Assembly (NCBI RefSeq): GCF_900104625.1
Contig: NZ_FNVZ01000005.1
Span: 1,364,001-1,428,000 of the forward strand
DNA: 64,000 nucleotides
Direction of reading: 5' to 3'
Source of the DNA: Leptotrichia massiliensis
Lineage (GTDB): Bacteria > Fusobacteriota > Fusobacteriia > Fusobacteriales > Leptotrichiaceae
Under the pieces are notes generated by a model, which saw only the letters and a program-made list of their open reading frames with translations, was not told the DNA's origin and ran no database searches. Position 1 is the first letter of the stretch, and each line of letters opens with the position of its first letter. Position numbers and translations under genes: made by a program. Shown piece by piece: positions 1-49,885 of this stretch.

Positions 1-331
1 TTATATAAGAATTATAAGCTTCCAGCTGTTCATTTGACAAAACTCTTGCAATTGCTCTGTATCTGTCTTCTTCTATTTTACCAATTTTAGCTTTTTTCCC
101 ATCAAACTGGACTAAATCCTTTTCTACTCTCTCAGCCTTTTTTTGATATTCATCAAATATTTTTGACAATTTTTTTTGCTGATTTTTAGTTGCATTTACG
201 ATTTTAAACAAATCATTTTTAGAAATTTTCACTGTATAAATTTTTTGATAGTAATCTTCATAGGAATAAGACAAAACACTTATTCCAAACACCAATACTG
301 ATAAAAGTGCTATTTTTTTTAATTTATTCAT
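1..331 (-). CDS. Secreted small coiled protein, 3' end cut by window edge
   Basis: An open frame begins with ATG at 331, preceded by GAAAGGATGAGA as ribosome site, and runs through position 1 without a stop, so about 110 residues are visible. The first 23 residues form a classical signal peptide (MNKLKKIALLSVLVFGISVL then SYS). The rest is charged and predicted helical, with an SNEQLEAY stretch near the visible end that recalls the LTxxQ motifs of Spy/CpxP-type periplasmic proteins; that link is weak. The gene starts only 28 bases downstream of the guaB stop with no terminator between, so it is probably the next gene of the guaB transcript. Function unknown. Confidence 0.6.
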   Translation of the reverse strand, partial: MNKLKKIALLSVLVFGISVLSYSYEDYYQKIYTVKISKNDLFKIVNATKNQQKKLSKIFDEYQKKAERVEKDLVQFDGKKAKIGKIEEDRYRAIARVLSNEQLEAYNSYI

Positions 332-359
332 TCTCATCCTTTCACAAATTCCTTTAATT

Positions 360-1835
360 TTAATTATTTGAATTATTATAATTAGGTGCTTCCTTCGTAA
401 TTATAACATCATGTGGGTGACTTTCCTTCAATCCTGCTCCTGTTATTTTTACAAATTTTCCATTTTCTTTTAAATCTTCAATTGTAGCTGTTCCGCAGTA
501 TCCCATTCCAGAACGAAGTCCACCGCAAATTTGATAAACTGTATCTTTTAATGCACCTTTATAAGGAACCATTGATTCGATTCCTTCTGGAACTAATTTT
601 TCTGTTGCCGCTTCAAGCTGAAAATATCTGTCGCTGCTTCCTCTCTTCATAGCCGCAAGTGAACCCATCCCTGCATAAGTCTTAAATTTTCTTCCATTAT
701 ATAAAATTTCTTCTCCTGGCGCTTCATCAGTTCCCGCAAGCATTCCTCCAAGCATAACACAGTCTGCTCCAGCCGCAATGGCTTTTACAACATCTCCAGA
801 TAATTTTATTCCACCATCGGCAATAAGTCCGATTCCTTTGTCTTTACAAACTTCCGCAATATTCATTACAGCCGAAATTTGTGGAACTCCAACTCCTGAC
901 ACAACTCTAGTTGTACAGATTGACCCTGGTCCAACTCCTACTTTCACTGCATTTATTCCTGCTTCTATCAAATCAAGCGCTGCTTCTGGAGTTACAATAT
1001 TTCCTCCGATAATGTCTAAATCAGGAAAAGCCGCTCTAATTTCTTTTATTTTGTTAATAACTCCTATTGAATGTCCATGTGCTGAATCAACAGCAATAAT
1101 ATCAACCCCAGCTTCTACTAAAGCTGCAACTCTTCTCACTGTATCAGTTCCAACTCCAACTCCTGCCCCAACTCTAAGTCTACCTTGCTCATCTTTTGCC
1201 GCATTAGGATAATTTATAACATTGTCAATATCTTTAATTGTAATTAATCCTTTTAATTTTGTACCTTCAACGATTGGCAATTTTTCAATTCTATTTTCTA
1301 AAAGAATTGATTTAGCACCTTCAAGAGTCGTCCCAACAGGTGCAGTTACCAAGTTATCTTTAGTCATAATATCTACAACTTTTAATGATAAATCTTCTCT
1401 ATATTTCAAGTCACGGTTGGTAATAATTCCTTTTAAATTACCGTCATTATCAACTACAGGAAGTCCCGAAACTTTATAATTTTTCATCAAGTCATTTGCA
1501 TCTTTTAAAATAGCATCTTCCTTCAATGTAATTGGATTTGTAATCATACCGCTTTCATATCTTTTTACCTTCGACACTTCTTCAGCCTGTCTTTCAATCG
1601 TCATATTTTTATGAATGAAGCCTATTCCACCTTCTCTTGCAAGTGCAATTGCAAGTTTTGATTCTGTAACAGTATCCATTGCTGCACTTAATATTGGAAT
1701 ATTTAACACCAATTTTTTAGTTAAATTAGTTTTTAAAGAGACTTCATGTGGTACTACACTTGATGCTTGTGGGATTAATAACACATCATCAAAAGTTAAT
1801 CCTTCAGAAATTACAATTTTATCTTTTTGACTCAT
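360..1835 (-). CDS. guaB: IMP dehydrogenase
   Basis: Oxidises IMP to XMP with NAD+, the committed step of GMP synthesis in the cytosol. The protein opens with the family start (LTFDDVLLIPQAS), contains a CBS-domain pair inserted at about residues 95-205, then the catalytic loop GPGSICTTR with the nucleophilic cysteine at about residue 300, and the mobile flap ending SHPHDVIITKEAPNY. The frame is open 12 codons further upstream, but the ATG at 1835 is chosen because GAGGAGG lies 8 bases before it and nothing suitable precedes the longer start. The length of 491 residues is normal. It is followed closely by the secreted-protein gene at 331. No purine riboswitch is visible in the leader. Confidence 0.97.
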   Translation of the reverse strand: MSQKDKIVISEGLTFDDVLLIPQASSVVPHEVSLKTNLTKKLVLNIPILSAAMDTVTESKLAIALAREGGIGFIHKNMTIERQAEEVSKVKRYESGMITNPITLKEDAILKDANDLMKNYKVSGLPVVDNDGNLKGIITNRDLKYREDLSLKVVDIMTKDNLVTAPVGTTLEGAKSILLENRIEKLPIVEGTKLKGLITIKDIDNVINYPNAAKDEQGRLRVGAGVGVGTDTVRRVAALVEAGVDIIAVDSAHGHSIGVINKIKEIRAAFPDLDIIGGNIVTPEAALDLIEAGINAVKVGVGPGSICTTRVVSGVGVPQISAVMNIAEVCKDKGIGLIADGGIKLSGDVVKAIAAGADCVMLGGMLAGTDEAPGEEILYNGRKFKTYAGMGSLAAMKRGSSDRYFQLEAATEKLVPEGIESMVPYKGALKDTVYQICGGLRSGMGYCGTATIEDLKENGKFVKITGAGLKESHPHDVIITKEAPNYNNSNN

Positions 1836-1948
1836 TTTAAATATCCTCCTCGTTTTATTTTTAATTTCCAAATTTGCAAATTTAGTAAATCAAGAGAAAA
1901 TTTTATGAAACTAGACTCTTCTGTATTACTTTTCTTGCCTTATTTTAA

Positions 1949-1957
1949 ATTATATCA
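1949..1957 (-). promoter_or_regulatory. Extended -10 promoter of guaB
   Basis: On the minus strand TGATATAAT matches an extended -10 element (TGnTATAAT). It lies about 115 bases upstream of the guaB start. The -35 region 17 bases upstream (TATCTT) is poor, as is common with extended -10 promoters. Confidence 0.5.
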
Positions 1958-2061
1958 TTTTATCACAAAACAAGATATAATTTCAATACTTTTTTTAAAA
2001 GATTTTTTTACAATTTTTCCAAACTTAAACTAAGTTTAATCATAATGTAATCTTTTATTTC

Positions 2062-2823
2062 CTACATATTGGGAGTTTCTGGTAATACCTGCCCACCATC
2101 TACAATTATTGTTTGACCTGTAATAAAACCAGCTTCTCGACTGGCCAAGAAAACTGCTGTGTATCCAATATCTTCAGGTTTTCCCAAAGTATATACTGGT
2201 ATTATATCCTTCATTTTTTTCATATATTCCTCTCCAGCCTCTATCAATCCATCTGTTAATATATTTCCTGGCTGAATAGCATTAACTGTAATTCCATATT
2301 TTGCATACTCCAATGCTGCACTTCGCATAAATCCCAACTGTGCGGCTTTACTAGCACCATAATGTGCCCATCCATAAAATCCTGTAATAGGCCCTGTAAT
2401 CGAAGAAGTCAGTATTACTCGCCCATAGCTTTGTTTTTTCATATATTTTAGTACTGCTTGTGCTACAAAAAAAGTTCCCTTTACATTTATATCTTGAACT
2501 TTATCCCAATCTTTTTCTGTCATATTTTCAATGCTTACTTGTGGAAAAATTCCCGCATTTGAACATAGGATGCTTAATTTGCCATATTTTTCGTAAATGC
2601 TTTGGACAACATACTGAACTTGTTCTTTATCTGTAACATCAAGATAATAAAATTCGTCATCCAGTTCACTTGCTGTTTCCTTACCTTTTTCTTTATCGAT
2701 ATCTCCTATAATGATTTTTGCTCTAGCTTGTTTCAATGCTTTTGCAATACCTTTTCCTATACCTTTTGCTCCGCCCGTGACAAGAGCAACTTCTCCAGCC
2801 AAATCAAACATTTCAATCAACAT
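2062..2823 (-). CDS. Short-chain dehydrogenase/reductase (SDR), glucose or 3-ketoacyl reductase type
   Basis: NAD(P)-dependent classical SDR of about 250 residues. The dinucleotide-binding motif TGGAKGIG sits near residue 20, the NAG motif (CSNAGIF) near 90, the catalytic serine in TSSITGP, and the YxxxK pair in HYGASKAA near residue 160. The substrate cannot be read from sequence; relatives include glucose, ribitol and 3-oxoacyl-ACP reductases. The start is uncertain: the ATG at 2823 directly abuts the AAGGAAGG ribosome site, while TTG at 2820 or ATG at 2811 (giving MFDLAGEVALVTGG, the usual family start) would be better spaced. It stands alone between guaB and the TPR genes, all on the same strand. 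Confidence 0.85.
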   Translation of the reverse strand: MLIEMFDLAGEVALVTGGAKGIGKGIAKALKQARAKIIIGDIDKEKGKETASELDDEFYYLDVTDKEQVQYVVQSIYEKYGKLSILCSNAGIFPQVSIENMTEKDWDKVQDINVKGTFFVAQAVLKYMKKQSYGRVILTSSITGPITGFYGWAHYGASKAAQLGFMRSAALEYAKYGITVNAIQPGNILTDGLIEAGEEYMKKMKDIIPVYTLGKPEDIGYTAVFLASREAGFITGQTIIVDGGQVLPETPNM

Positions 2824-2866
2824 CCTTCCTTGTTATATTTTTATTTTATATGTTTCATTTTTAAAT

Positions 2867-3883
2867 TTAATCTGCTTTTAAAGGGCTAAATTTTATAGTT
2901 TTATCGCCTGCTTTTCCACTTTTTATTTTATTATTTGCCTTCACAAGCTCTTCTGCCAATCTTAGTGCATTTAATTTTGAAATATATTCCTTATATTTTT
3001 CCTTATTCTTATTTTTTATCTCTTCTGTAAAATCAGCAAGCATACTGTAAATTTGAAATCTCAAATCATTATCATGTTGAGCCATAAAAATGTATGCTTC
3101 TTTAGAATATTCAAATGCTTCATCATACTTTTTCATTTGAATATAATTTAAAAATACAAGATACTGAGCATCCGCCTTATATCTGTATTTTGCTGATTCT
3201 GTAACATAAGAATAATCCAGTTTCTTCATTTTATCATATTTATCTATCGCCAATTTTGCATATTTTATTGAATTTGAATAATTTTCATTTTGAAAATCTA
3301 TTGCAGCTATCGAATAATATCCTTCTGGAAACTCTGGAAACAATGTTATCATTTTCTTAGCAAGCTCCACTTGCTCCTTTTCCATCCCTGCCTGTCCATA
3401 TTTTGCTACAAGATTAGTATAAGCCATCGGATTTTTAGGATTTGCCTTAATCGCATCCTTATAATATTCCATCGCAACTTTTATATTATCCGCCTCTTGC
3501 GCTAAATAATAATATGGCAAATAATTCTTTTTGTCTTCTTCTATCGCCTGCAAAAATAGTTTCTTTCTTTTGTCATAATCACTTTCTTCTTCGATTGCCT
3601 TAAATGTTGTTTCAATAGATTTTTTATTGATTCCGAGCTCAGTCAATTCCTTCATAGTTAAATCTATAACCTCTTTTTTCTCTTTTTTTTCCAAATCTAT
3701 CTCTTCAAATCTTTTTCTATCATTTTCACTAATTTCCTTGATCGTATCTTTTATAGTCATTTCACCAATGTTTTTGCCATCTTTATTTTCACTTTTTAAA
3801 GTGCTACTCCTCTGAACGCTCACTTTTGCGGAAAATCCATAGATGTTACATAAAATAAAACTCACCAATAAAATTTTTTTCAT
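2867..3883 (-). CDS. Secreted TPR-repeat protein
   Basis: A signal peptide (MKKILLVSFILCNIYGFSA) is followed by a charged region with repeated Glu/Lys and then, from about residue 95, helical repeats of TPR type (PYYYLAQEADNIKVAMEYYKDAI, NPMAYTNLVAKYGQAG and FPEGYYSIAAIDFQNENYSN are recognisable units), so it probably works as a protein-protein scaffold in the periplasm. ATG at 3883 is chosen over the TTG six bases upstream because AAGGAG lies 9 bases before it. It begins 18 bases after the upstream membrane/TPR gene and both follow pepT, so the three likely form one transcript. The specific role is unknown. Confidence 0.75.
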   Translation of the reverse strand: MKKILLVSFILCNIYGFSAKVSVQRSSTLKSENKDGKNIGEMTIKDTIKEISENDRKRFEEIDLEKKEKKEVIDLTMKELTELGINKKSIETTFKAIEEESDYDKRKKLFLQAIEEDKKNYLPYYYLAQEADNIKVAMEYYKDAIKANPKNPMAYTNLVAKYGQAGMEKEQVELAKKMITLFPEFPEGYYSIAAIDFQNENYSNSIKYAKLAIDKYDKMKKLDYSYVTESAKYRYKADAQYLVFLNYIQMKKYDEAFEYSKEAYIFMAQHDNDLRFQIYSMLADFTEEIKNKNKEKYKEYISKLNALRLAEELVKANNKIKSGKAGDKTIKFSPLKAD

Positions 3884-3901
3884 TCTCAATCACTCCTTCT
3901 A

Positions 3902-4414
3902 TTAACTTAGTTCCAAAATTTTCTCCTGTGCAATTTTACCCATATAAAGTTTATTCCCTTTTTCAGCCACTTCTTTATATAACTCTTTTGCTTTTTCAAA
4001 ATTTCCAATTTCTTCATATGTTTTAGCTAAATTGAACTTTATTATTGGCAACGTTAATCTAATTATTTTTATTTTATTTAAATACTTTAACGCTTTTTCT
4101 TTCTCGTTTAGCAGCCAATAACAAACTGATAAATTAATTCTGTTAAAATCTTTCATAATATTAATTTTAAAAATTTTGTACATTTTTTCTACTATTAAAA
4201 TATATTTTTTAGGATCTAATTTAACAAATAAATAATGATTTCCTATCAAAAGTAGTATTAAATACGGAAATAAATATATCATTATTATTACTGACAATAT
4301 CCATAATAAAAAATATACAAAATAAGACACTCTCAAAAATATATCCATGCTTAATTTATAAACTAATATAAAAATTATTTCATACAGATAAGTTTTTAAT
4401 GCCGCCTTTCGCAT
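3902..4414 (-). CDS. Small membrane protein with C-terminal TPR-like helices
   Basis: A 170-residue protein with two hydrophobic segments at about residues 10-30 and 32-58 and a soluble tail carrying TPR-type helices (CYWLLNEKEKALKYLNKI, then KFNLAKTYEEIGNFEKAKELY). It starts 4 bases after the pepT stop, with GGAG from the pepT 3' end as ribosome site, so translation is probably coupled to pepT. It may anchor or work with the secreted TPR protein encoded next. No family name is assigned. Confidence 0.65.
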   Translation of the reverse strand: MRKAALKTYLYEIIFILVYKLSMDIFLRVSYFVYFLLWILSVIIMIYLFPYLILLLIGNHYLFVKLDPKKYILIVEKMYKIFKINIMKDFNRINLSVCYWLLNEKEKALKYLNKIKIIRLTLPIIKFNLAKTYEEIGNFEKAKELYKEVAEKGNKLYMGKIAQEKILELS

Positions 4415-4418
4415 TTTT

Positions 4419-5660
4419 TTACTCTCCTTCAGCGTTCAATCTTACAATCTCCACAATTACATCAGTTGCTAGAATCATACTCTCAAGTGCTACAAATTCG
4501 TATTTCCCATGAAAATTTTCCCCACCTGCGAAAATATTTGGCGTAGGAAGTCCCATGAATGAGATTTTTGAGCCGTCTGTTCCTCCACGGATTGGCTTGA
4601 TTATTGGTTTTATTTCAAGGTTTTCCATTGCTTTTTTTGCTATTTCTACGATTTCCATGTGATTCTTTATGATTTCGCCCATGTTGTAATATTGATCCTT
4701 TATTTCAACTGTTGCTAATTCTTTTTTGTATTTTTCATTAATTTTTTTTGCAACATTTTCAGCAAATTTCTTTTTTTCTTCAAACTTCTGTCTGTCGTGA
4801 TCCCTTAAAATATATGATAATTCAGCGTCTTCACAATTTGCACGGATTTTTTCAAGAAAATAAAATCCTTCATATCCTTCTGTCTTTTCAGGCACTTCAT
4901 CTGCTGGGAAACTATTTATAATTTCTCCTGCTATTAAACTTGCATTTATCATTTTTCCTTTGGCTGTTCCTGGATGAACGCTTTTACCTTTTATTTTAAA
5001 TACAGCTCCAGCTGCATTAAAACTTTCGTATTCAAGTTCTCCCACTGGTCCACCATCTATTGTATAAGCAAAATCCGCTCCAAATTCATCCACATTAAAG
5101 TTATCTGCTCCACGCCCAATTTCCTCATCAGGCCCAAACGCTATTTTTACTGTTCCGTGTTTGATTTCTGGATGGTTAATCAGATATTTCATAGCCTCAA
5201 TAATTTCCACAACTCCAGCCTTATCATCAGCTCCCAGAAGTGTTGTTCCATCAGTAGTAATTACAGTTTTCCCAACATAATCCTTTAAATTAGGAAATTC
5301 GTCCACAGAAAGTACAATATTTTGCTCCCTATTCAAAACAATATCTTTCCCATCATAGTTTTCCACAATCTGTGGATTTACATTAACTGCATTAAAATCA
5401 GCAGTATCCATATGTGCAATAAATCCAATAGTTTTCACATCTTTATCAACATTACTTTTCAAAGTTGCATTAACAAAGCAATTTTCATTCACATATACAT
5501 CTTCCATTCCTATTTCTTCCAACTCTTTTACAAGCATTTTGGCAAACTCAATCTGTGTTGGTGTGGATGGGATGCTCTCATTTTTCTCATCGGACCTAGT
5601 CTCAATTTTAACATATTTCAAAAATCTCTCTTTAAGCGTTTCATATTTGTTTAAATCCAT
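4419..5660 (-). CDS. pepT: Peptidase T (tripeptide aminopeptidase)
   Basis: Cytosolic zinc aminopeptidase of the M20B family that releases the N-terminal residue from tripeptides, completing breakdown of imported peptides. The metal ligands are visible in order: HMDTAD near residue 80, LLGADDKAG near 145, EEIGRG near 180 and the DGGPVGELE segment near 205, with the late His in GGENFHGKYEF. The length (413 residues) matches the family. A TTGAAA/TAAAAT promoter lies just upstream. It heads a likely three-gene transcript with two TPR-type genes. An oligopeptide importer is encoded elsewhere in the window, consistent with peptide feeding. Confidence 0.97.
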   Translation of the reverse strand: MDLNKYETLKERFLKYVKIETRSDEKNESIPSTPTQIEFAKMLVKELEEIGMEDVYVNENCFVNATLKSNVDKDVKTIGFIAHMDTADFNAVNVNPQIVENYDGKDIVLNREQNIVLSVDEFPNLKDYVGKTVITTDGTTLLGADDKAGVVEIIEAMKYLINHPEIKHGTVKIAFGPDEEIGRGADNFNVDEFGADFAYTIDGGPVGELEYESFNAAGAVFKIKGKSVHPGTAKGKMINASLIAGEIINSFPADEVPEKTEGYEGFYFLEKIRANCEDAELSYILRDHDRQKFEEKKKFAENVAKKINEKYKKELATVEIKDQYYNMGEIIKNHMEIVEIAKKAMENLEIKPIIKPIRGGTDGSKISFMGLPTPNIFAGGENFHGKYEFVALESMILATDVIVEIVRLNAEGE

Positions 5661-5701
5661 TTACTTTCCCTACTTTCTTTATATTTTTTTACTTATAATT
5701 T

Positions 5702-5730
5702 ATTTTACAATTTTTTACATCTTTTTTCAA
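5702..5730 (-). promoter_or_regulatory. Promoter of pepT
   Basis: Minus-strand TTGAAA (5730-5725), 17-base spacer, TAAAAT (5707-5702), about 40 bases before the pepT start codon. Confidence 0.55.
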
Positions 5731-5864
5731 TGTTCTAGTTAAAGAATTTACGAATATATCTAATTTTTTTAATATTTATACTTATAATATTAAACAACCA
5801 GCTAAATTATCACTAACTTTTGATATTATTTTGCTAATTTCATTAACTTTATAATAAATAAAAA

Positions 5865-5900
5865 ACTCAAGTAATTATAAGTTAATACAATTTCTTGAGT
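5865..5900 (-). terminator. Weak intrinsic terminator after the DUF2628-like gene
   Basis: ACTCAAG and CTTGAGT form a 7-bp stem with a 22-base loop. On the minus strand the stem is followed by a run of T (TTTTTTATTTATT). It lies 25 bases past the stop at 5926. Confidence 0.5.
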
Positions 5901-5925
5901 CATATTTTTATTCTTTGTAATAATA

Positions 5926-6255
5926 TTATTCGTTGCTGCTAGTCATAATTACACCATTTGAAATCAATAGCTGTTTATCATTTTCGCTTGCTGGTTCCCA
6001 TCCTTTTTCAATTAGAGTTTTTGCATACATTCGATTATATTTTAATGCAATAAAAACACGGTATCCGATTATTGCAAGTCCAAAAGTAAAACTACCGATA
6101 ATTCCGGCTAAAAATCCAGTTATCAAAAACATAATCGCCTCCTCCTTATCACCTCTAAATAAAGGCACAAACCATCCAAAAAAAAATGTCGTCCATGAGA
6201 ATCCTAATTTTACTTCTTTTCTCAAACCATTATTTTCTACAATCGCTATTACCAT
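5926..6255 (-). CDS. DUF2628-like small membrane protein
   Basis: A 109-residue protein with the DUF2628-type signature FSWTTFFFGWFVPLFRGD, followed by two hydrophobic segments (residues 40-62) and a C-terminal part ending KTLIEKGWEPASENDK, the usual arrangement of this family (the end resembles the family motif for a glycine/tryptophan turn). Function unknown; probably in the inner membrane. The start at 6255 has GGAGG 8 bases upstream; the ATG at 6270 lies inside that ribosome site and is rejected. A TTGCAA/TATAAT promoter is just upstream and a hairpin downstream, so it is a single-gene unit. Confidence 0.7.
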   Translation of the reverse strand: MVIAIVENNGLRKEVKLGFSWTTFFFGWFVPLFRGDKEEAIMFLITGFLAGIIGSFTFGLAIIGYRVFIALKYNRMYAKTLIEKGWEPASENDKQLLISNGVIMTSSNE

Positions 6256-6289
6256 AAAAACAGCCTCCATTTTTTAGATTATTTTATTA

Positions 6290-6318
6290 ATTATATCTTA
6301 TTTTTATTAAAATTGCAA
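6290..6318 (-). promoter_or_regulatory. Promoter of the DUF2628-like gene
   Basis: Minus-strand TTGCAA (6318-6313), 17-base spacer, TATAAT (6295-6290), about 35 bases before the start codon. Confidence 0.6.
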
Positions 6319-6658
6319 TTTTTCATTAACTTCATTTATAGTTTTATTATAGTAGACCACTTACCATTTGAAAAATAGAAATATAATTATTTAATAATCT
6401 TGTAAAAAACAACTTTAGTTTCATAACTTTTTTTGTTTTGACTTTCACTATTTAAAAAGAAATATATTATAAAATGCGATAAAATAGTAAAAAGCTATAA
6501 ATTAATCTATTGTTTTTTATTCCCGAAAACTTAGTCAGCACATCATCCTGCATTGTCCCCGCCCACTTCGCTAATTGCCTCAATAGTAATTTCATTTCCA
6601 ATTTGCTTTTTAAATTCGTTTGTATAATTCCTTTACTTCTCTAAAATTAAAATTTTTA
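6319..6658. other. Intergenic stretch holding an alr relic
   Basis: Between two divergent small membrane-protein genes. Its right half contains the copy of the alr 3' end (6511-6584). The rest is AT-rich with no frame, tRNA or hairpin that I can support. Confidence 0.5.
6511..6584 (-). pseudogene. alr: Relic copy of the 3' end of alanine racemase
   Basis: This minus-strand segment reads RQLAKWAGTMQDDVLTKFSG followed by IK, almost the same as the last residues of the intact alr gene (RQVAKWAGTIQDDVLTKFSG then IKKQ). Over about 72 bases I count seven substitutions and one T missing from the T-run, so the two copies are about 90% identical (7503-7577 is the counterpart). Upstream of the match the frame is broken and there is no body of the gene. 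The natural stop is lost through the missing base. It points to a past duplication or replacement around the alr 3' end. Confidence 0.85.
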
Positions 6659-6687
6659 TTGCATTCACTAAAATTATATTATATAAT
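6659..6687 (+). promoter_or_regulatory. Promoter of the TM2-domain gene
   Basis: TTGCAT, 17-base spacer, perfect TATAAT (6682-6687), then AAAGGAGG and ATG at 6720. Confidence 0.6.
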
Positions 6688-6719
6688 TAATGCATAATTT
6701 ATTAAAGGAGGAATTTGTT

Positions 6720-7097
6720 ATGAATGATATTACTAATCCGCAATCAGATAGAATTAACCCTGATTTTGTACAACAATACATTATGGCGAATGCTAAATTT
6801 TTTCCAGAAGATTCAATAAATGAACTTAAAGCAAGATTATCTAAACTTTCACAAAATCAGTTCAACGCAATTCAAGGAATTCAATTAAAAGATCCTATGA
6901 TAATGCTACTTTTATCACTTTTTCTTGGTTCTTGGGGTATTGATAGATTTCTTCTAAAAGAAATTGGATTAGGTATAATAAAATTATTAACTGCTGGTGG
7001 ATGTGGTATTTGGACTATCGTTGACTGGTTTTTAGTTATGAATAGAACTAGAGAATTTAACTACAAATTAGTTTTTGACTCTTTACCTATCGGTTAA
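6720..7097 (+). CDS. TM2-domain membrane protein
   Basis: A 125-residue protein. The N-terminal 65 residues are polar and contain FVQQYIMANAKFFPEDSINE, possibly a short helical bundle. The C-terminal part is a TM2 domain (PF05154): a first helix with LLSLFLGSWGIDRFLL, a GxGIIKLLTAGGCGIWTIVDW second helix, and a short tail. The DRF motif between the helices is characteristic. The function of bacterial TM2 proteins is not established. ATG at 6720 is preceded by AAAGGAGG at 8 bases; the frame is open 10 codons further upstream but without a ribosome site. It is followed by a DUF2752-like gene, a pairing common for TM2 genes. Confidence 0.85.
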   Translation: MNDITNPQSDRINPDFVQQYIMANAKFFPEDSINELKARLSKLSQNQFNAIQGIQLKDPMIMLLLSLFLGSWGIDRFLLKEIGLGIIKLLTAGGCGIWTIVDWFLVMNRTREFNYKLVFDSLPIG

Positions 7098-7168
7098 TTT
7101 AACATGTAAATTTTTTAAGATTTAAAATATTTACATAATAAACTAATTTAATACAATTGGAAATCAAT

Positions 7169-7477
7169 ATGAAAAAATACTTTAACTTATTATTTAATTA
7201 TCATAAAAACAATCTTATTTTGTACATATCACTTGTATTTATAATTTCTATAAGATATTATTTTAAAATACCGTCACCATTTGGATTTGTTTTAAAACCA
7301 TTACATATCCATTATTGGAGTGAAGGCTTAACAACAGCATTTATACAATTGATAAAGGGCAATTTTTATCATGCTTATAAAATAAACCCTTTGATATTTA
7401 TTGTTGTGATAGTTATTTTTTTTCATATCTTTTTAGAGCCTATAATTTTTAAAAATTCAAAAACTAAAAAACAGTAA
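7169..7477 (+). CDS. DUF2752-like membrane protein, cysteines lost
   Basis: A 102-residue protein with two or three hydrophobic segments. The middle reads EGLTTAFIQLIKGNFYHAYK followed by INPL, which matches the DUF2752 core (CPxCGLTRA, a short helix with G, then NPL) except that both conserved cysteines are replaced (the equivalent stretch is HYWSEGLTTA). The neighbouring TM2 gene supports the assignment, since the two families often sit together. ATG at 7169 is used; an in-frame TTG at 7157 is less likely. The stop falls inside the bidirectional terminator shared with alr. The role is unknown, and the family link is from motif memory only. Confidence 0.55.
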   Translation: MKKYFNLLFNYHKNNLILYISLVFIISIRYYFKIPSPFGFVLKPLHIHYWSEGLTTAFIQLIKGNFYHAYKINPLIFIVVIVIFFHIFLEPIIFKNSKTKKQ

Positions 7478-7510
7478 AAAGATTTAAATAAAATCAATTT
7501 ACTGTTTTTT
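7466..7510. terminator. Bidirectional terminator between the DUF2752-like gene and alr
   Basis: A 13-bp stem (AAAAAACAGTAAA paired with TTTACTGTTTTTT) with a 19-base loop. T-runs occur on both strands, so it can end the plus-strand pair and the minus-strand alr transcript. It overlaps both stop codons. Confidence 0.75.
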
Positions 7511-8665
7511 TATTCCCGAAAACTTAGTCAGCACATCGTCCTGTATAGTCCCAGCCCACTTTGCCACTTGCCTCAATGTTATTTTTTCAGTAATTCCATT
7601 TTCAACATTTTTCTGACTCCCAATAATTACAACTTCATCATTTACTTCTACATTTTCTATGTCCGTTAAATCAATAAAAATCATATCCATACAAATTTCT
7701 CCAACAATTTTTGCCTTTTTACCATTTATTAAAACATATGCTCCTTCTGAATTTTCAATTTGCTTTTGAAATCCGTGTGCATAGCCTATTGATACAATGC
7801 CTATTTTAGAGTCTCTGTTTACAATGCCTTTACTTCCATAGGAAATTTTATCGTTTTTTTTCACATTTCTTATGTTTATAATTTGCGACTTTACTGTTAT
7901 AACGTCTAATAATCCCACATCATAAGATAAAGGCTCCATTCCATAAAGTGCCATTCCAATACGTGCGAAATCATAATTGTATTTTTCTCCGTATTTAAAA
8001 AGCAACGGACTTGCCTGCAAATGTTTGTACTGGTATTTTACATTATTTTTGTCAAATATCTTTAAAATATTTTCATATTTTTCAACTTGCTTTTCAGTTT
8101 CAATTTGATTTTCCGCATCTGAAATATGAGAAAAAATAGAGATTATTTCCAGTTTGTTATTTTTAGAATTTATTTTATATTTTTTTATTTTTTCAATTAA
8201 TTCCAAAATCTCATTTTCATTAAATCCAAGCCTGTTCATTCCACTGTTTACTTTTATATGTATTTTCAAAACTGTATTTTTGAAAAATTTATCCAAAATT
8301 TTTAAGTAATCAGATAATTGTGAAAAATTAAAAATTGTAAGTTCAACATTATTTTCTATCACATATTTCAAATTTTTAGGCTCAATGTAATTAAGAACCA
8401 TTATCTTTATTCTTTTATTTTTCAAAAAGTTTATTTTTTTTTCTTTTTCAAATTTTTTTAGAATTTCAAGAATTTTTATCGCTTCCTCAATATATGCCAC
8501 CGCAAAGTAATTACAGTTATTTTCTAGCAATATCGGAAAAATATTTTCAATTTCCAGCCCATAGGCATTGTCTTTAATTACACAAATGATATTTTTATTT
8601 ATAGAGCGTATTTTTTCCAAGTTCCTTTTTAGATTTTCCCTATTTATTTCCAAATTTACTAACAT
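7499..8665 (-). CDS. alr: Alanine racemase
   Basis: PLP enzyme interconverting L- and D-alanine for peptidoglycan. Fold-type III TIM barrel first: the PLP lysine is Lys31 in VIKDNAYG, where most racemases read VVKANAYGHG. The second domain carries the catalytic tyrosine region (YGSKGI, then GIVSIGYAHG). ARIGMALYGMEP is also typical. The length (388 residues) is normal. The C-terminal 25 codons are the segment duplicated as a relic at 6511-6584. It follows a small membrane-protein gene by 29 bases. The lysine context differs from the textbook motif but the other motifs leave little doubt. Confidence 0.94.
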   Translation of the reverse strand: MLVNLEINRENLKRNLEKIRSINKNIICVIKDNAYGLEIENIFPILLENNCNYFAVAYIEEAIKILEILKKFEKEKKINFLKNKRIKIMVLNYIEPKNLKYVIENNVELTIFNFSQLSDYLKILDKFFKNTVLKIHIKVNSGMNRLGFNENEILELIEKIKKYKINSKNNKLEIISIFSHISDAENQIETEKQVEKYENILKIFDKNNVKYQYKHLQASPLLFKYGEKYNYDFARIGMALYGMEPLSYDVGLLDVITVKSQIINIRNVKKNDKISYGSKGIVNRDSKIGIVSIGYAHGFQKQIENSEGAYVLINGKKAKIVGEICMDMIFIDLTDIENVEVNDEVVIIGSQKNVENGITEKITLRQVAKWAGTIQDDVLTKFSGIKKQ

Positions 8666-8694
8666 TTTTTATTTTTTCTCTCCTTAACAAATTC

Positions 8695-9216
8695 CTAAAC
8701 TGTTATTATTAATGGAGCCATTATTCCTAAAAGGATAACTAATCTCAAAAGCAGGATTTTACGATAAATTTTTTGATACTGTATTTCGGGTATTCCTTTT
8801 TCTTTTAGGAAAAATCCGATTGCTGTGATTTTATTAGAAGTGTCGCTTCTGCTGTAACGGTTTACATATGGTTCAAATAATATTTTTTCTTCATTCACTG
8901 TCAAATGTATTCTTGGTGTTCCCACATATTTATCCATGTATCCTGTCGTATTTTTACTATCCAATTTTTTTCCATTTAATGAAACCACCCCATTTTCAAC
9001 TTTTAACTTGTCAATTCTCAAAAAAATAAATAAAATCCAGACAACAATGGCAGCAACTGGCAAAAAAGCTGAAATTGTCCTTGCAACCGAAATTTTTTCC
9101 AGCAAAGTAAATGCTATTCCATAAACAATAGACAATATCGCCATTAATATCAGAATTTTATCCACTCCCTTATGAATTAATCCATTAAGTTCAATTTTTT
9201 CATTAGTAATTTCCAT
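8695..9216 (-). CDS. Membrane protein of unknown function
   Basis: A 173-residue protein with two hydrophobic helices near residues 20-45 and 50-68, a soluble domain (KVENGVVSLNGKKLDSKNTT and onward) that looks like a beta-rich PH-like fold, and a last hydrophobic segment at the C-terminus (LLRLVILLGIMAPLIITV). ATG at 9216 is chosen because GGGAG lies about 10 bases upstream; the frame is open 13 codons further. It lies between rdgB and alr on the same strand. I do not recognise a family. Confidence 0.6.
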   Translation of the reverse strand: MEITNEKIELNGLIHKGVDKILILMAILSIVYGIAFTLLEKISVARTISAFLPVAAIVVWILFIFLRIDKLKVENGVVSLNGKKLDSKNTTGYMDKYVGTPRIHLTVNEEKILFEPYVNRYSRSDTSNKITAIGFFLKEKGIPEIQYQKIYRKILLLRLVILLGIMAPLIITV

Positions 9217-9328
9217 AATAAACAGCTCCCTTCCAGCCTTTTTTTTATTTAACAAACAATACTAAAAACTGAAATCAAAATTTATAATTTACCTAAATCT
9301 ATTTTTTAGTCTGAAAAACAATTAATAT

Positions 9329-9922
9329 TTACTTTTCTTCCAGAAGTCCTGATGCAATAAGCTTTCTAAATGCTCTTGCCCGATGGCTCACACTTTTTCT
9401 TTCTTCGTCATCTGCTTCTCCAAATGATTTTCCTAGTTCATACGAATAAAAAATTGGATTGTAACCAAATCCATTGTTACCTCTTGCTTCAAACAAAATC
9501 TCTCCTTCTATTTCTCCACGGAATGAATGAATTTCCCCATTTGGAAAGGCAATACTTACAACAGATACAAAATGTGCTTTTCTATTTTCTTTCTTCACAT
9601 CCTTCAGAAGTTCCAGCATTTTTTGGTTCTTTTCGCTGTCAGTCGCATTTTCTCCCCCAAATCTCGCCGAATAAACTCCCGGTGCTCCATCCAAAGCATC
9701 TACACAAAGTCCTGAATCATCAGAAACTGTTATAATATTAGTATATTCTGCAATTTCCTTTGCTTTTTTCTGAGAGTTTTCCTCAAAAGTTTCTCCATCC
9801 TCCACAACATCAGGAATCTCTAATCCATCTAAAATTGTTACAACTTCCAAATCCATTCCCTCAGTCAATTTTTCAAAGTCTTTTATTTTCCCTTTGTTTT
9901 TCGTTGCTAATAATACTTTCAT
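9329..9922 (-). CDS. rdgB: XTP/dITP diphosphatase (RdgB/HAM1)
   Basis: House-cleaning pyrophosphatase that hydrolyses ITP, dITP and XTP to keep deaminated purines out of nucleic acids. The family markers are all present: ATKNKGK at residues 6-12, VSDDSGLCVDALDGAPGVYS near 70, FGYNPIF near 150, and SHRARAFRKL near the C-terminus. The length is 197 residues, as usual. Encoded downstream of plsC and upstream of the unknown membrane protein, all minus. Confidence 0.96.
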   Translation of the reverse strand: MKVLLATKNKGKIKDFEKLTEGMDLEVVTILDGLEIPDVVEDGETFEENSQKKAKEIAEYTNIITVSDDSGLCVDALDGAPGVYSARFGGENATDSEKNQKMLELLKDVKKENRKAHFVSVVSIAFPNGEIHSFRGEIEGEILFEARGNNGFGYNPIFYSYELGKSFGEADDEERKSVSHRARAFRKLIASGLLEEK

Positions 9923-27379: not shown

Positions 27380-27857
27380 ATTTTTGTTTATTCCTTCCTT
27401 CCAAAATATTCAATAACTCAAATTCTAAATTAAAACTATAATTTCTCATTTTGATTTTAATTTATTTTAATTAATAATTATTTTATCTATAATTTTTATT
27501 TTTATAAAGCAAGGGAAATCAATCACCATTTCCCTTTATTTCATAATAATAGTTATTTTAGCATAGTTTCTATTTTCTAATGGGATTTAGTATTAAATTA
27601 CTTTGTTTAATAATAGTTCTTACTATTTTTAATATGTTTTTTTCTTTTTTCGCAGGATTGCTCATTGCCGCAAATCCTGCACCTATGGCTAGACTACGAC
27701 TTTTATTTGCCCAACTCCGAAACTCCTCCTTATAGTCGTCAAACAGTCGTAGTTGAACAAATAAAAGCTCCGTCGATTTATTATTTGTTGAAAAATTTTA
27801 TACTAAATTTACTATTTAAGAGATGAAAATATAAATTAATCTTTCCAATAGATTGAT
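27380..27857. other. Long non-coding gap splitting the opp cluster
   Basis: The gap between the two ATPase genes has no intact gene. It contains a hairpin at 27511-27536 (AAGGGAAAT with ATTTCCCTT), a palindromic element at about 27650-27800, and the terminator after oppD. On the minus strand the element includes a 64-codon open stretch without a start codon (see findings). Confidence 0.7.
27650..27800. repeat. Palindromic intergenic element with relic reading frame
   Basis: Nested inverted repeats: GCAGGATT with AATCCTGC (about 27654-27683), ACTACGAC with GTCGTAGT, and imperfect arms of the form CTTTTATTTGyyCAACTmCG. On the minus strand the same DNA reads open from after a TAA near 27803 to a TAG, with residues such as YKEEFRSWANKSRSLAIGAG and AAMSNPAKKEKNILKI. 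GC content is visibly higher than the surroundings. It looks like a dispersed element, but only one copy is seen here. Confidence 0.45.
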
Positions 27858-40147: not shown

Positions 40148-40259
40148 CTTTTATTCCTTATCTACATTTATTAATATTTTTTCTTAATTTACATTAATCT
40201 TTTTTTATTTAAGACTATTAATTCCATTTTTTTACAATCTTGCTTAAGGATTTTTTATT

Positions 40260-40620
40260 AAAATAACTGTTGTAATTAAACTAAAATCGTCGTGATTTTT
40301 TTGAAATGAAAACGACTAAACACATTTATGTGTTTCTTTCGCCAGAACCTTCATAGTAAATATATTTTATAGAGTTGTTCTAATCTTTATTTACAAAAGT
40401 GAGCATCAGCGAGTTTAGTTTTCATAGTAATTCAGGTTTATCCAAACAATAAATGTTTAGACTACTTTCCCAAATAAAATTTGGGAATATTTCAAAAAAA
40501 TGCTTAGACAAGCTGGGATTAGTGCGTAGCACTTTCGCCAAAATCTTCAGATGTTATAATTTAAAGAAATTGAAATAACTAATATCGCGAAATAAAAGGA
40601 GATGGCGATTGATCCCCTTT
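40260..40620. repeat. Palindrome-rich intergenic element, about 360 bases
   Basis: The 627-base gap between the TonB receptor gene and hmuU is non-coding. Three short palindromes are visible: CACATTTATGTG (40321-40332), CCCAAAT/ATTTGGG around AAA (40469-40485), and GTGC/GCAC around GTA (40522-40532). On the minus strand two similar modules (GAAGATTTTGGCGAAAG and GAAGGTTCTGGCGAAAG) occur about 210 bases apart, the first opening a 42-codon frame without a start. It looks like a composite dispersed repeat; 40148-40259 and 40621-40774 hold nothing I can support. Confidence 0.45.
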
Positions 40621-40774
40621 ACACATAAAAAAAGAAAAAATATAAAAATTATTGAAAAAATATTTATTAACAACTGTATCTTATAAAAATTAACAATTTT
40701 ATTTATTTATAAAATACAGCCAAACAACTTTATAACGATTGCTTGACTGCCACTTTCCATATTTAAAATTATTT

Positions 40775-45594: not shown

Positions 45595-45616
45595 AGAAAT
45601 ATAAATCAAATTATTA

Positions 45617-46762
45617 TTAATTTTCTCCCCATACTTCATCTGAAATTTCCTTAATAAATCTAAGTTTTGCCCATTGCTCTTCTTCTGTAAGCCTATTTCC
45701 TTCCTCTGTTGAAGCAAATCCACACTGTGGACTCAAATAAAGCCTGTCGAGTGGCACATATTTTGAAGCCTCTTTTATACGTGCAATTACACTTTCCTTT
45801 TCCTCCAATGTTGGATTTTTAGAAGTTATTAATCCCAAAACAACTTTTTTATCTCCAGAAACTTTTGCAAGCGATTCAAAAGTACCTGCTCTTTCTGTAT
45901 CAAATTCCAAATAATAGGCATTTACATCTTCTTTCCCAAAAAGCTCATCTGCAATTTTATCGTATCCGCCTTTCCCAAACCAGGTAGAAGCATAATTTCC
46001 ACGGCAAACATGCGTATTAATTACCAAATTTTCTGGATTATTTTGAAATACCCTGTTATTTATATTTAGAAATTTTTCTGCAAATTCTTGCCTGATAATT
46101 TCTTTATCCCTATCACTTTTTTCAATAAATGAAGCAATAAAGTCATCGTCTACAAGACAACCCCAAGTACAGTCATCAATTTGCAAAGTTCTAAGTCCTT
46201 CGTTATACAAGTCATTTATAACAGTTTTGTAGGCACTGACAATATCGTCTTCCAATCCTATAAAATCAGGATAAACTTTAAGAAGTGCGGCCACATGCTT
46301 ATCTTCCCTTACTAATTCTGCATAAAATTGTGCTGGAGCAGGTATCGTAAATCTAGCTTCCACACCTTTTTTATCTTTTACTAAATCTCGCAAAAATGTA
46401 TAATGTTTCACAAACGGATGATTTTCCCCACCAATTTTTCCAGTAACAATCGCAGTATCATCACGAGTAACAACACCATTAAATTCATAACCTTTATCAG
46501 CATGCACATGCCCAATTCCATTGAATCCCCAGAAAAAGTCCAAATGCCAGTAACTTCGTCTAAATTCCCCATCTGTAACACTTGTATATCCTAATTCAAT
46601 TTGCTTATCCACAATTTTTCTAATTTCTTCATCCTCAACTTTTTCCAATTCTTTCTTGTCAATTTTTCCCTTTTCAAAATCATTTCTAGCTTTCTTCAGT
46701 TTCTCAGTTCTCAAAAAACTTCCTACAGTATCGTGTCTATGAGGTGCATTTATTGTACACAT
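45617..46762 (-). CDS. MetE-like methyltransferase (YxjG/YxjH type)
   Basis: A 381-residue protein corresponding to the C-terminal catalytic half of cobalamin-independent methionine synthase. Zinc ligands: His and Cys in THVCRGNY, Glu in YLEFDTERAG, and Cys in SPQCGFAS. The start has HRHDTVGSFLR, usual for the YxjG group. The methyl donor may be a folate or another methyl compound; the homocysteine role is inferred. It lies downstream of a LysR gene, with its own consensus-like promoter, and ends at a strong terminator. Confidence 0.9.
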   Translation of the reverse strand: MCTINAPHRHDTVGSFLRTEKLKKARNDFEKGKIDKKELEKVEDEEIRKIVDKQIELGYTSVTDGEFRRSYWHLDFFWGFNGIGHVHADKGYEFNGVVTRDDTAIVTGKIGGENHPFVKHYTFLRDLVKDKKGVEARFTIPAPAQFYAELVREDKHVAALLKVYPDFIGLEDDIVSAYKTVINDLYNEGLRTLQIDDCTWGCLVDDDFIASFIEKSDRDKEIIRQEFAEKFLNINNRVFQNNPENLVINTHVCRGNYASTWFGKGGYDKIADELFGKEDVNAYYLEFDTERAGTFESLAKVSGDKKVVLGLITSKNPTLEEKESVIARIKEASKYVPLDRLYLSPQCGFASTEEGNRLTEEEQWAKLRFIKEISDEVWGEN

Positions 46763-46800
46763 ATTATCAACTCCCTTATTTGTTATTATTTTATGAAGTT

Positions 46801-46829
46801 ATTATATACAAATATATGCTTTCTGTAAA
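46801..46829 (-). promoter_or_regulatory. Promoter of the MetE-like gene
   Basis: Minus-strand TTTACA (46829-46824), 17-base spacer, TATAAT (46806-46801), about 40 bases before the start. Confidence 0.75.
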
Positions 46830-46884
46830 ATACATTTATTTTTTAGTTTATTATAACTTTTATTTATGCCAATGTTCTTTAATC

Positions 46885-47799
46885 TTATGGAATTTCTGTA
46901 TATTTCAAATGTTCCTTCAAAGCCTCCACATAAACTTTCCCATAAACACTTAGTTCAATATTTTTCTGCATTATAATTCCAACTTTCATATATTCATCCA
47001 CTTCCAGCGGTTTTGCGATAATATTTTCTCCATTTAGCTCTTTACTAATTATTCCTGTACTTACCGTGTATCCGTTAAGCCCAACTGCCAAATTAAATAA
47101 AGTTGCTCTATCACGTACCTTTATATTCTTATCCCTGTCAAGTGTACTCAATATTTCTTCTGAAAAATAAAAAGAATTATAATCTCCTTGCTCAAATGAT
47201 AAATATGGATATTCCTTCAAATCTTCAAGACTAATGCTTTCCTTTTTTGCTAAAGGATGATTAAAACTAATGAAAACATGTGGCTTTGCAGTAAATAGCT
47301 CAATAAATTTCAAGTTATTTCTTTTTATCATTTTTTCAATTACAGTTTTATTTGCTCCTGAAGTGTATAAAATTCCAATTTCACTTTTTCTCTTGCTTAC
47401 ATCTTCAATAATTTCATTAGTTTGTGTTTCCCTAAGTGTAAAATCATACTTATTTTCGCCAAATTTCTTAATCACATCTACAAAAGCATTTACTGCAAAC
47501 GAGTAGTGCTGAGTTGATACCGAAAATCTACGAGTTATCTTATTTCCTTTTTTATATTCTTCTTCCAACAAATCCATCTGTTCCAAAACTTGTCTAGCAT
47601 ACCCCAGAAATCTATCTCCTTCAAGTGAAACAATTACTCCTTTATTTGTCCTGTTAAAAATCCTTATATTCATCTCATCTTCCAGCTCTTTTATTGCTTT
47701 CGTCAATGCCGGCTGTGAAACAAACAGCTCTTTTGCAGCATCACTTAATGTCCCTTTTTCAGCGACTGTTACTACATATTTTAGTTGCTGTAATGTCAT
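46885..47799 (-). CDS. LysR-family transcriptional regulator
   Basis: A 304-residue regulator. The N-terminal winged helix-turn-helix is canonical (MTLQQLKYVVTVAEKGTLSD followed by AAKELFVSQPALTKAIKELE), followed by a linker helix and a periplasmic-binding-like effector domain from about residue 90. The neighbour downstream on the same strand is the MetE-like gene, which has its own promoter, so this regulator may control it in response to methionine or homocysteine (as MetR does); that is inference. Confidence 0.93.
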   Translation of the reverse strand: MTLQQLKYVVTVAEKGTLSDAAKELFVSQPALTKAIKELEDEMNIRIFNRTNKGVIVSLEGDRFLGYARQVLEQMDLLEEEYKKGNKITRRFSVSTQHYSFAVNAFVDVIKKFGENKYDFTLRETQTNEIIEDVSKRKSEIGILYTSGANKTVIEKMIKRNNLKFIELFTAKPHVFISFNHPLAKKESISLEDLKEYPYLSFEQGDYNSFYFSEEILSTLDRDKNIKVRDRATLFNLAVGLNGYTVSTGIISKELNGENIIAKPLEVDEYMKVGIIMQKNIELSVYGKVYVEALKEHLKYTEIP

Positions 47800-47984
47800 T
47801 TCCTTCTCCCTATTTTATTCACATAATCTTCTTAATATTTCTCCTGCATCTTCTATATTTATTATGTATAACCAATACTATTTCCCGTTTAAAGTTTCAA
47901 ATCTTGAATTAAATAATCTTTATACATATTTATCAAAAGCAAGTTGTTATTTTTACATACTTTCTATGTTTAATTGGTTAAATA

Positions 47985-48009
47985 AAAAGACACCTATAAA
48001 AGTGTCTTT
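47985..48009 (-). terminator. Terminator of rpsP
   Basis: Minus-strand AAAGACAC and GTGTCTTT form an 8-bp stem followed by TTATTTAACC, 10 bases past the stop. Confidence 0.8.
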
Positions 48010-48019
48010 CTATAAATAA

Positions 48020-48289
48020 CTATTTTTTCTTAGTTTCTTGAAATTTTTCCCAGATTCCTGCTTTTGTCAAAATGCTTTTAACAGTTTCAGTTGGTTGTGC
48101 TCCATTTGATAAGTATCTTAAGATTTCTTCCTCTTTTAATACTACTTGTTTTCCTTCTTCAGCAAGTGGATTGAATGTTCCTAAGTAAGCAACTGCTTTT
48201 CCATCTCTTCTTGATAAAGCTTCCATAGCTGCTATTCTATAAAAAGGAACTTTCTTTCTTCCTAATCTAGTTAATCTTAATTTTAACAT
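48020..48289 (-). CDS. rpsP: 30S ribosomal protein S16
   Basis: An 89-residue ribosomal protein (MLKLRLTRLGRKKVPFYRIA at the start, RRDGKAVAYLGTFNP in the middle), which binds 16S rRNA early in 30S assembly. GGAGG precedes the start. It is a single-gene unit with a perfect promoter upstream and a terminator downstream, not grouped with rimM, trmD and rplS as in many bacteria. Confidence 0.98.
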   Translation of the reverse strand: MLKLRLTRLGRKKVPFYRIAAMEALSRRDGKAVAYLGTFNPLAEEGKQVVLKEEEILRYLSNGAQPTETVKSILTKAGIWEKFQETKKK

Positions 48290-48347
48290 TAAATTTTACC
48301 TCCATTTATTTAATAACTTGAAAATTTATTATTTTAAGTATGTTATG

Positions 48348-48376
48348 ATTATACTAAAATTTTTAAAAATTGTCAA
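48348..48376 (-). promoter_or_regulatory. Consensus promoter of rpsP
   Basis: Minus-strand TTGACA (48376-48371), 17-base spacer, TATAAT (48353-48348). Confidence 0.85.
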
Positions 48377-48455
48377 GTATTTTTTCTTTACATAAAAAAC
48401 AAATTATAAATTTAAATATATTTTTCAAAAATTTCTTAAATTCATATTTTGATAT

Positions 48456-49874
48456 TTATTTTTTTAAATATTTTTCATACATTTTGGTAGCAGATGCCAA
48501 TTTTACTTTTATATCTTGTAAATCCATACTTTTAAATATTTCAAATTTTATTTCTCCTATTTCTTCAAGTTCTTCTTCAATTTCATTATCTGTCGGCATT
48601 ATAAAAGCATTTTCTTTCATTTTTAAACCATTCTCTTGGATAAAATTCTTATATGCAAGTTCATATAAATATTGTTTAGATACATCTTGTACTCCAGGAT
48701 AGCCCCTTAATTCCTCTTCTGTAAACATAATATTGTAATATTTCGCATCATAAATGGAAATGCTTTTATCTTCTTGATTGTATACAACTAAATCAGGGAT
48801 TAAAGTCTTATCAGATTTATGTTTCTTTTCAGAATTGATAACACTCCATTCAGGTTTAGCTATTATTTCCTTCAAAGTTTTGTTTTCAGTATGATTTGTT
48901 GTTCCTAATCCTAAATCCTTTAGTTTTCTATCTAGGGAATTTTCCAGAACAACAGCACATACCTTTTCCCATACTAAATTGAAACTGGTTGTTCCAATAA
49001 ACTTTATTTCTTCATCTTCATTTGAATTTTCAGATTCCAATAGATAATTCTTCATCATATTTAACTGTTTCTGCTTTTTATCAACAAACTGTCTGCTCAT
49101 TTCCTGATTCAATTTTTCTTGAATATAATCCTTATCTCCAAAATAGTCAATTTCATCATCTGAAATATTTATAGGTTCATAATCGAGAATATCAAATATT
49201 TCCTTAATTTTATTGTAGCTTTCTGTTATTATGCAACGATGTAATCTCCTAAGAATTTCTTCTTCATTTGTTTCTTTATTTACAGAAAAAACATCCAAAT
49301 AGAATGGGACATTATTTACAAAATAAGCACCTTTTTCATTTATAGTTTTCTCCCAGAGAATTTCTCCTTCTCCATTTTCTTCTATTATTGTTTTTTCATT
49401 ACTATAAAGTCCATTAATGTGATAATCATCATACAAATCTATTGCTAAAGCCAGCAAGTTATAATTTTTATTTTCTTTGTCATTTGATAAGGATTGTTTC
49501 TGCTCCTTGCTTTCATATTTTCTCATAACTTCTATTAACTGCTTTATTATCTTATTATCCCTATCAAAATTTTCATCAAATTCCTTAATATATTTTGGAT
49601 AAATAATCAGACAGATATCCTTTACAGTAATTATACCAACAAATTTAAATTTATACTTGTCTCCCTCAAATTCTTTTTCTAAATTTTTAAAAGATTCTCC
49701 ATTATTTAATTCTTCTAATTCAACTTCAGATAAGTTCTTAGAAATTTTTCTGACAATATTCTTATATGCTAATATTTTTAAAACTTCTCTAGTTTTATCT
49801 TCAGTAAGATTAAATATAGATTGTAATTTAGAAATATCATATAATTTTAATTCCTGAATTTTTTTTACTTTCAT
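48456..49874 (-). CDS. LlaJI-family restriction endonuclease (McrC-like subunit)
   Basis: A 472-residue protein of the LlaJI nuclease family. The C-terminal third holds a PD-(D/E)xK core: IPDLVV, then SIYDAKYY with the Asp-x-Lys pair, followed by GVQDVSKQYLYELAY. Upstream are charged helical domains likely to contact the GTPase. In LlaJI of Lactococcus this subunit (R2) needs the McrB-like R1 subunit for cleavage. It starts 11 bases after the R1 stop and is the last gene of the four-gene operon. The recognition site cannot be read from sequence. Confidence 0.9.
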   Translation of the reverse strand: MKVKKIQELKLYDISKLQSIFNLTEDKTREVLKILAYKNIVRKISKNLSEVELEELNNGESFKNLEKEFEGDKYKFKFVGIITVKDICLIIYPKYIKEFDENFDRDNKIIKQLIEVMRKYESKEQKQSLSNDKENKNYNLLALAIDLYDDYHINGLYSNEKTIIEENGEGEILWEKTINEKGAYFVNNVPFYLDVFSVNKETNEEEILRRLHRCIITESYNKIKEIFDILDYEPINISDDEIDYFGDKDYIQEKLNQEMSRQFVDKKQKQLNMMKNYLLESENSNEDEEIKFIGTTSFNLVWEKVCAVVLENSLDRKLKDLGLGTTNHTENKTLKEIIAKPEWSVINSEKKHKSDKTLIPDLVVYNQEDKSISIYDAKYYNIMFTEEELRGYPGVQDVSKQYLYELAYKNFIQENGLKMKENAFIMPTDNEIEEELEEIGEIKFEIFKSMDLQDIKVKLASATKMYEKYLKK

Positions 49875-49885
49875 CTAAACTACCT

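Follow-up and report, generated by a model that had tools for sequence, protein, structure and literature searches.

Gene content of the locus and the alr-like relic

The window, a stretch of 64,000 nucleotides from the Leptotrichia massiliensis genome (2,537,566 bases in 5 contigs), carries the gene order pepT - hyp114 - relic - TM2 - DUF2752 - alr - hyp186 - rdgB - plsC - recX - recA, in which pepT, rdgB, plsC, recX and recA are named by reading of their ORFs and TM2, DUF2752 and alr by Pfam. The left neighbour of the relic, hyp114 (5926-6270, minus strand), is an ORF of 114 aa with no Pfam match at E 0.1; it adjoins alr in the relatives G009 and G010, whose proteins are 94.7% and 92.7% identical to it, and is 72% identical to that of G008. 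The TM2-domain membrane protein gene (6720-7097, plus strand; PF05154, E 9.3e-16) encodes a protein with 83% amino acid identity in G001 and 46% in G008. The DUF2752 membrane protein gene (7157-7477, plus strand, alternative start ATG at 7169; PF10825, E 3.7e-6) has a Pfam match of 27.4 bits against a cut-off of 27, and its identity reaches 94% in G003, 84% in G001 and 80% in G008. The intact alanine racemase gene alr (7499-8665, minus strand; PF01168 and PF00842) is of the G006/G008/G011 type according to its tree, and hyp186 (8695-9255, minus strand), an ORF of 186 aa, is closest to that of G006, with 98% nucleotide identity. A TM2 promoter proposed by eye (TTGCAT-17-TATAAT at 6659-6687) was discarded, its first hexamer being too poor for the promoter scan. 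That scan found 8 promoter-like sites where shuffled sequence gave a mean of 10, and no promoter is assigned to TM2.

The first-pass annotation had described a repeat of about 72 bases of the alr 3' end, with the TM2 and DUF2752 genes lying between the copies on the opposite strand. Pfam matches both genes, and the repeat is real: positions 6513-6592 match 7506-7585 on the same strand, ungapped, at 88% over 80 nt. Its extent was incompletely described, as up to two more alr-like pieces follow in order. The second, 6594-6626, is 85% identical to 7751-7783, agreeing with alr at 28 of 33 positions, a level equalled by none of 2000 dinucleotide shuffles and by none of 98 control stretches of the window. 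The third, 6623-6639 (17 nt, 88% identical to 7820-7836), may instead be part of the region ahead of TM2, since 10 of its letters recur at that place in G001. As read from these alignments, the relic (6513-6639, minus strand, with the 13 nt of 6627-6639 possibly belonging to the DNA upstream of TM2) is thus what is left of a longer 3' fragment of an alanine racemase allele, drawn from about 280 nt of the gene, or about 340 nt counting the third piece. Its internal gaps relative to alr are about 11 and 153 nt, plus 40 nt if the third piece counts, and it terminates between 6626 and 6639. Alignments place a spacer and a decayed copy of the alr hairpin at 6470-6512, resembling the alr downstream flank of G009 and G010; the relic's version of this hairpin (6479-6522, minus strand) folds at -1.4 kcal/mol with z -0.01, no better than shuffles. 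Among 60 genomes, the window's included, a second short C-terminal alr match was found besides the window's genome only in G013, where its coordinates suggest a single gene divided over two contigs, of which this match would be one part; more decayed relics could escape this search by alr match.

By alignment, alr-like text gives way to the DNA upstream of TM2 in a seam at 6626-6640: a single gapped BLAST match to G009 covers the window from 1 to 6638, and the TM2-side match to G001 begins at 6626. The short sequence CCTTTACTTC is shared by alr and, in G001, the DNA ahead of TM2. Matches as short as this one are commonplace, 65 of 100 control stretches sharing at least 10 nt with alr, so that CCTTTACTTC is not significant by itself as microhomology; the G001 DNA upstream of TM2 also has a longer, 11-nt match at another place in alr.

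The convergent DUF2752 and alr genes meet at a hairpin (7466-7515) that folds on both strands, at -16.4 kcal/mol on the minus strand and -13.9 on the plus strand (z -6.10 and -5.54), and within which the DUF2752 stop codon falls. From its predicted structure and position it may serve as a shared terminator of both genes; a terminator consensus scan of 6400-7600 listed nothing, the hairpin included. Its exact pattern occurs once in each of 7 of the 13 genomes of the genus; six of these, among them the window's genome, have it adjoining alr. In the seventh, G003, the pattern is found at another locus, next to a copy of DUF2752, and the genome's own alr carries a variant hairpin that the pattern missed. 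The joint of DUF2752, hairpin and alr seen in the window recurs in G008.

The G003 copy of DUF2752 (L054, about 5.0-5.4 kb, minus strand) is 96% identical to window positions 7169-7514 over 346 nt, through the hairpin. By reading, transposase-like ORFs flank it and a CAP-like ORF lies upstream of it. A 58-nt stretch ahead of it is similar (81%) to the end of the G008 TM2 gene.

Variable content of the pepT-alr spacer among relatives

The spacer between pepT and alr differs widely among the same-genus relatives. TM2 is present in two of the 12 (G001 and G008) and DUF2752 in three (the same two and G003). In G008 the pair directly adjoins alr without a recognisable repeat; in G001 an ORF of 217 aa separates DUF2752 from alr, and a CAP-like ORF (by reading) stands ahead of TM2. 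G006 and G011 have a different ORF, of 240 aa, in this place, and the spacer measures 176 nt in G002, 472 nt in G003 and 532 nt in G004. Over the 10 genomes measured, the window's included, gene content varies between the same conserved neighbours, pepT and alr, with spacers of 176-2577 nt and several kinds of content; pepT was not found in the fetched stretches of G005, G007 and G012. A G001-like TM2 together with a G006-like alr occurs in none of the 12 relatives. Beyond the genus, DUF2752 was found in other genera of the family (G017, G024 and G029), each time beside a TM2-like ORF by reading; overall it is present in 7 of 33 genomes, in 5 above the curated cut-off.

The single-copy, uninserted locus that the first-pass annotation proposed to look for in related strains exists: G009 and G010 (2 of 12) have pepT-hyp114-alr with neither TM2 nor DUF2752. 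A full alr duplicate at the position of the relic, which it had named as the contrary outcome, was seen in none of the 12; the second alr match in each is a far-away paralogue of about 32% identity.

Two dispersed repeats were also recorded in the window. One of about 420 nt (40253-40673), with no ORF of 80 aa and no Rfam match, has 20 further copies (E no higher than 1e-100) in 8 of the 13 genomes of the genus, and one copy (G006:C1:878689-879108) sits, by its coordinates, inside the G006 pepT-alr spacer. The other, of about 220 nt (27558-27783), with no ORF of at least 80 aa and no Rfam match at gathering score, has matches in at least 11 of the 13 genomes.

Ancestry changes around the relic

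On the two sides of the relic the window resembles different relatives. Its identity per 200 nt to G009 is 94-98% over 5601-6400, and that to G006, G008 and G011 is 90.5-99% over 7401-9600. At diagnostic sites, defined as those where G006, G008 and G011 share one letter and G009 and G010 another, the window has the G009/G010 letter at 10 and the G006/G008/G011 letter at 1 of the 11 sites in 5601-6512, against 4 and 39 of the 43 sites in 7475-8665. Fisher's test of this switch gives p 4e-7, an optimistic value, given the linkage among sites and the choice of intervals with the profile already in view. Around the relic itself (6301-6600, relic included) the sites lean 3:1 towards G006/G008/G011. 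The G009-like tract appears to be short, since the sites over 1-6470 as a whole are mixed (37:42, G006/G008/G011 letter first) and the pepT tree gives the window no resolved placement, G006 being nearest. To the right the sites stand at 11:3 in rdgB and 23:16 beyond it, and they mark no sharp right border.

The trees of alr and hyp186 point in the same direction. In the alr tree the window groups with G006, G008 and G011 (support 98/97), and a grouping with G009/G010 is rejected (p-AU 0.003); in the hyp186 tree it joins G006 at 94/90 (not starred), and the G009/G010 grouping is again rejected (p-AU 0.017). The rdgB tree gives no resolved placement of the window. Background similarity did not separate resident from donor: other parts of the genome are a mosaic too, and six relatives stand at about equal similarity (87.6-89.1%) at an independent 13-kb locus. 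The identities, sites and trees show that ancestry changes around the relic, but the roles of resident and donor given below are putative. Elsewhere in the window, 45597-52000 is 98% identical to G006 over 6.4 kb, against 88% at the second locus, and is likely another recombined tract.

The relic's own letters are less decisive. Across 120 aligned nt its identity is 88.3% with its own alr, 89.2% with that of G008, 87.5% with that of G006 and 86.7% with those of G009, G010 and G011 alike, and 8 sites are unique to it. Over this length, tree tests reject neither a grouping with its own alr (p 0.33) nor one with G009/G010 (p 0.31); the best tree places it with its own alr, G006, G008 and G011 (79/97, not starred).

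Origin of the relic and comparison with known recombination systems

The reading that we favour, and consider somewhat more probable than the sum of doubts against it, is that incoming DNA with TM2, DUF2752 and alr recombined by homology at one end, while its other end was joined illegitimately within an older alr, whose 3' end was left stranded. DNA of a related Leptotrichia, carrying TM2-DUF2752-hairpin-alr-hyp186, would have entered the chromosome and recombined homologously on the right, somewhere within hyp186-rdgB-plsC. On the left the junction would be an illegitimate one within the old alr, near codon 277-295, with CCTTTACTTC as its possible site. The incoming intact alr would have taken over from the 5' part of the old gene, whose surviving 3' part, the present relic, would have been left beyond TM2 and then have lost about 160-200 nt through small deletions. 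This account builds on what is directly observed, namely the pieces of the relic, the shift in ancestry around it and the relatives lacking the pair; a single event, its direction, the use of microhomology and uptake by transformation are the parts that we infer. Uptake appears possible from the gene complement, as the genome encodes the ComEC and DprA families, though these say little on the matter, being widespread also in controls (10 and 11 of 14 genomes, respectively). The insertion proposed by the first-pass annotation is upheld in its core, by the pair-free locus of G009 and G010 and by the lack of a second alr near the relic position; the attachment-like use of the alr 3' end that came with it is not.

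The letters of the relic count mildly against the simplest version of such a replacement and keep alive a single crossover of the Campbell type, in which circular DNA with TM2-DUF2752 and a 3' piece of alr would have entered a resident G006-type alr and duplicated its 3' end. The same order, hyp114-relic-TM2-DUF2752-alr, with the relic cut at the alr/TM2 joint, would result, and the relic's lean to the G006/G008 side (unstarred) would agree with it. However, the change of ancestry between hyp114 and alr-hyp186 would then require a separate cause, although the genome is a mosaic, and among the ORFs of at least 60 aa between the copies, TM2 and DUF2752 only, nothing marks a plasmid or phage. We regard this crossover as unlikely, with a chance still worth keeping in mind. 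A tandem duplication of the whole alr, with TM2 and DUF2752 gained between the copies and the outer copy left to decay, is a fuller form of the decayed tandem duplication raised in the first-pass annotation and is disfavoured here. Relic pieces that stand in order with deletions between them do resemble a decaying gene, but two copies of alr at the locus are found in none of the 12 same-genus relatives, and the relic matches its own alr (88.3%) no better than it matches the G008 gene (89.2%), which makes the duplication distinctly improbable.

The remaining suggestion of the first-pass annotation, a site-specific integrative element with the alr 3' end as its attachment site, draws on the presence of a gene 3' end as a direct repeat around cargo. 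The ORFs of at least 60 aa between the copies include no integrase or recombinase. Rather than a short core, the alr-like text represents 280-340 nt of the gene, with 12% divergence; nor are these short near-identical direct repeats, with 88% over 80 nt and a second alr piece that lies 1157 nt away from the part of alr it matches. Moreover, G008 has the pair without a recognisable repeat, and alr and hyp186, past the junction, change ancestry too. This reading was rejected on three grounds, namely that no recombinase ORF lies between the copies, that the alr-like text is long and that ancestry changes beyond the junction, and we hold it to be very improbable. It is tempting to ask, in addition, whether the alr terminator hairpin and the alr 3' end provide a recurrent docking homology for the swapping of small convergent cargo genes among Leptotrichia species. 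In G003 a DUF2752 copy with an alr-type hairpin has moved elsewhere, between transposase-like ORFs, and is cited for this reading, which is speculative and in our estimate has little probability.

The feature is real, and most likely a recombination scar of a kind already known. If this is right, it is a readable scar showing that a genome can gain accessory genes at the same time as one of its core genes gives way to the allele of a relative, and its use lies mainly in the correct interpretation of partial gene copies like this relic, which might otherwise be taken for attachment sites.

Homology-facilitated illegitimate recombination (HFIR) of transforming DNA is reported in Streptococcus pneumoniae, Acinetobacter baylyi and Pseudomonas stutzeri, with 3-10 bp of microhomology and about 1 kb gained and lost (PMC3240628). 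The window's event would be alike in pairing a homologous junction with an illegitimate one that carries short shared text, and in a gain of about 1 kb; it differs in that it is inferred from a natural genome and that its shared text is not significant alone. On the presumed homologous side, the ancestry of alr and hyp186 differs from that of the hyp114 stretch, the right crossover having no located position; on the other, CCTTTACTTC is common to alr and the DNA upstream of TM2, matches that long being frequent. The pepT-alr spacer as a whole behaves much as the hotspots without recognised mobile elements presented in PMC5635113, like which it holds variable cargo between conserved pepT and alr, with no recognised mobile-element genes in the window, and like which it is flanked by a gene, alr, that changes ancestry. 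In contrast to those hotspots, one junction in the window lies inside the flanking gene and has left a remnant of it behind.
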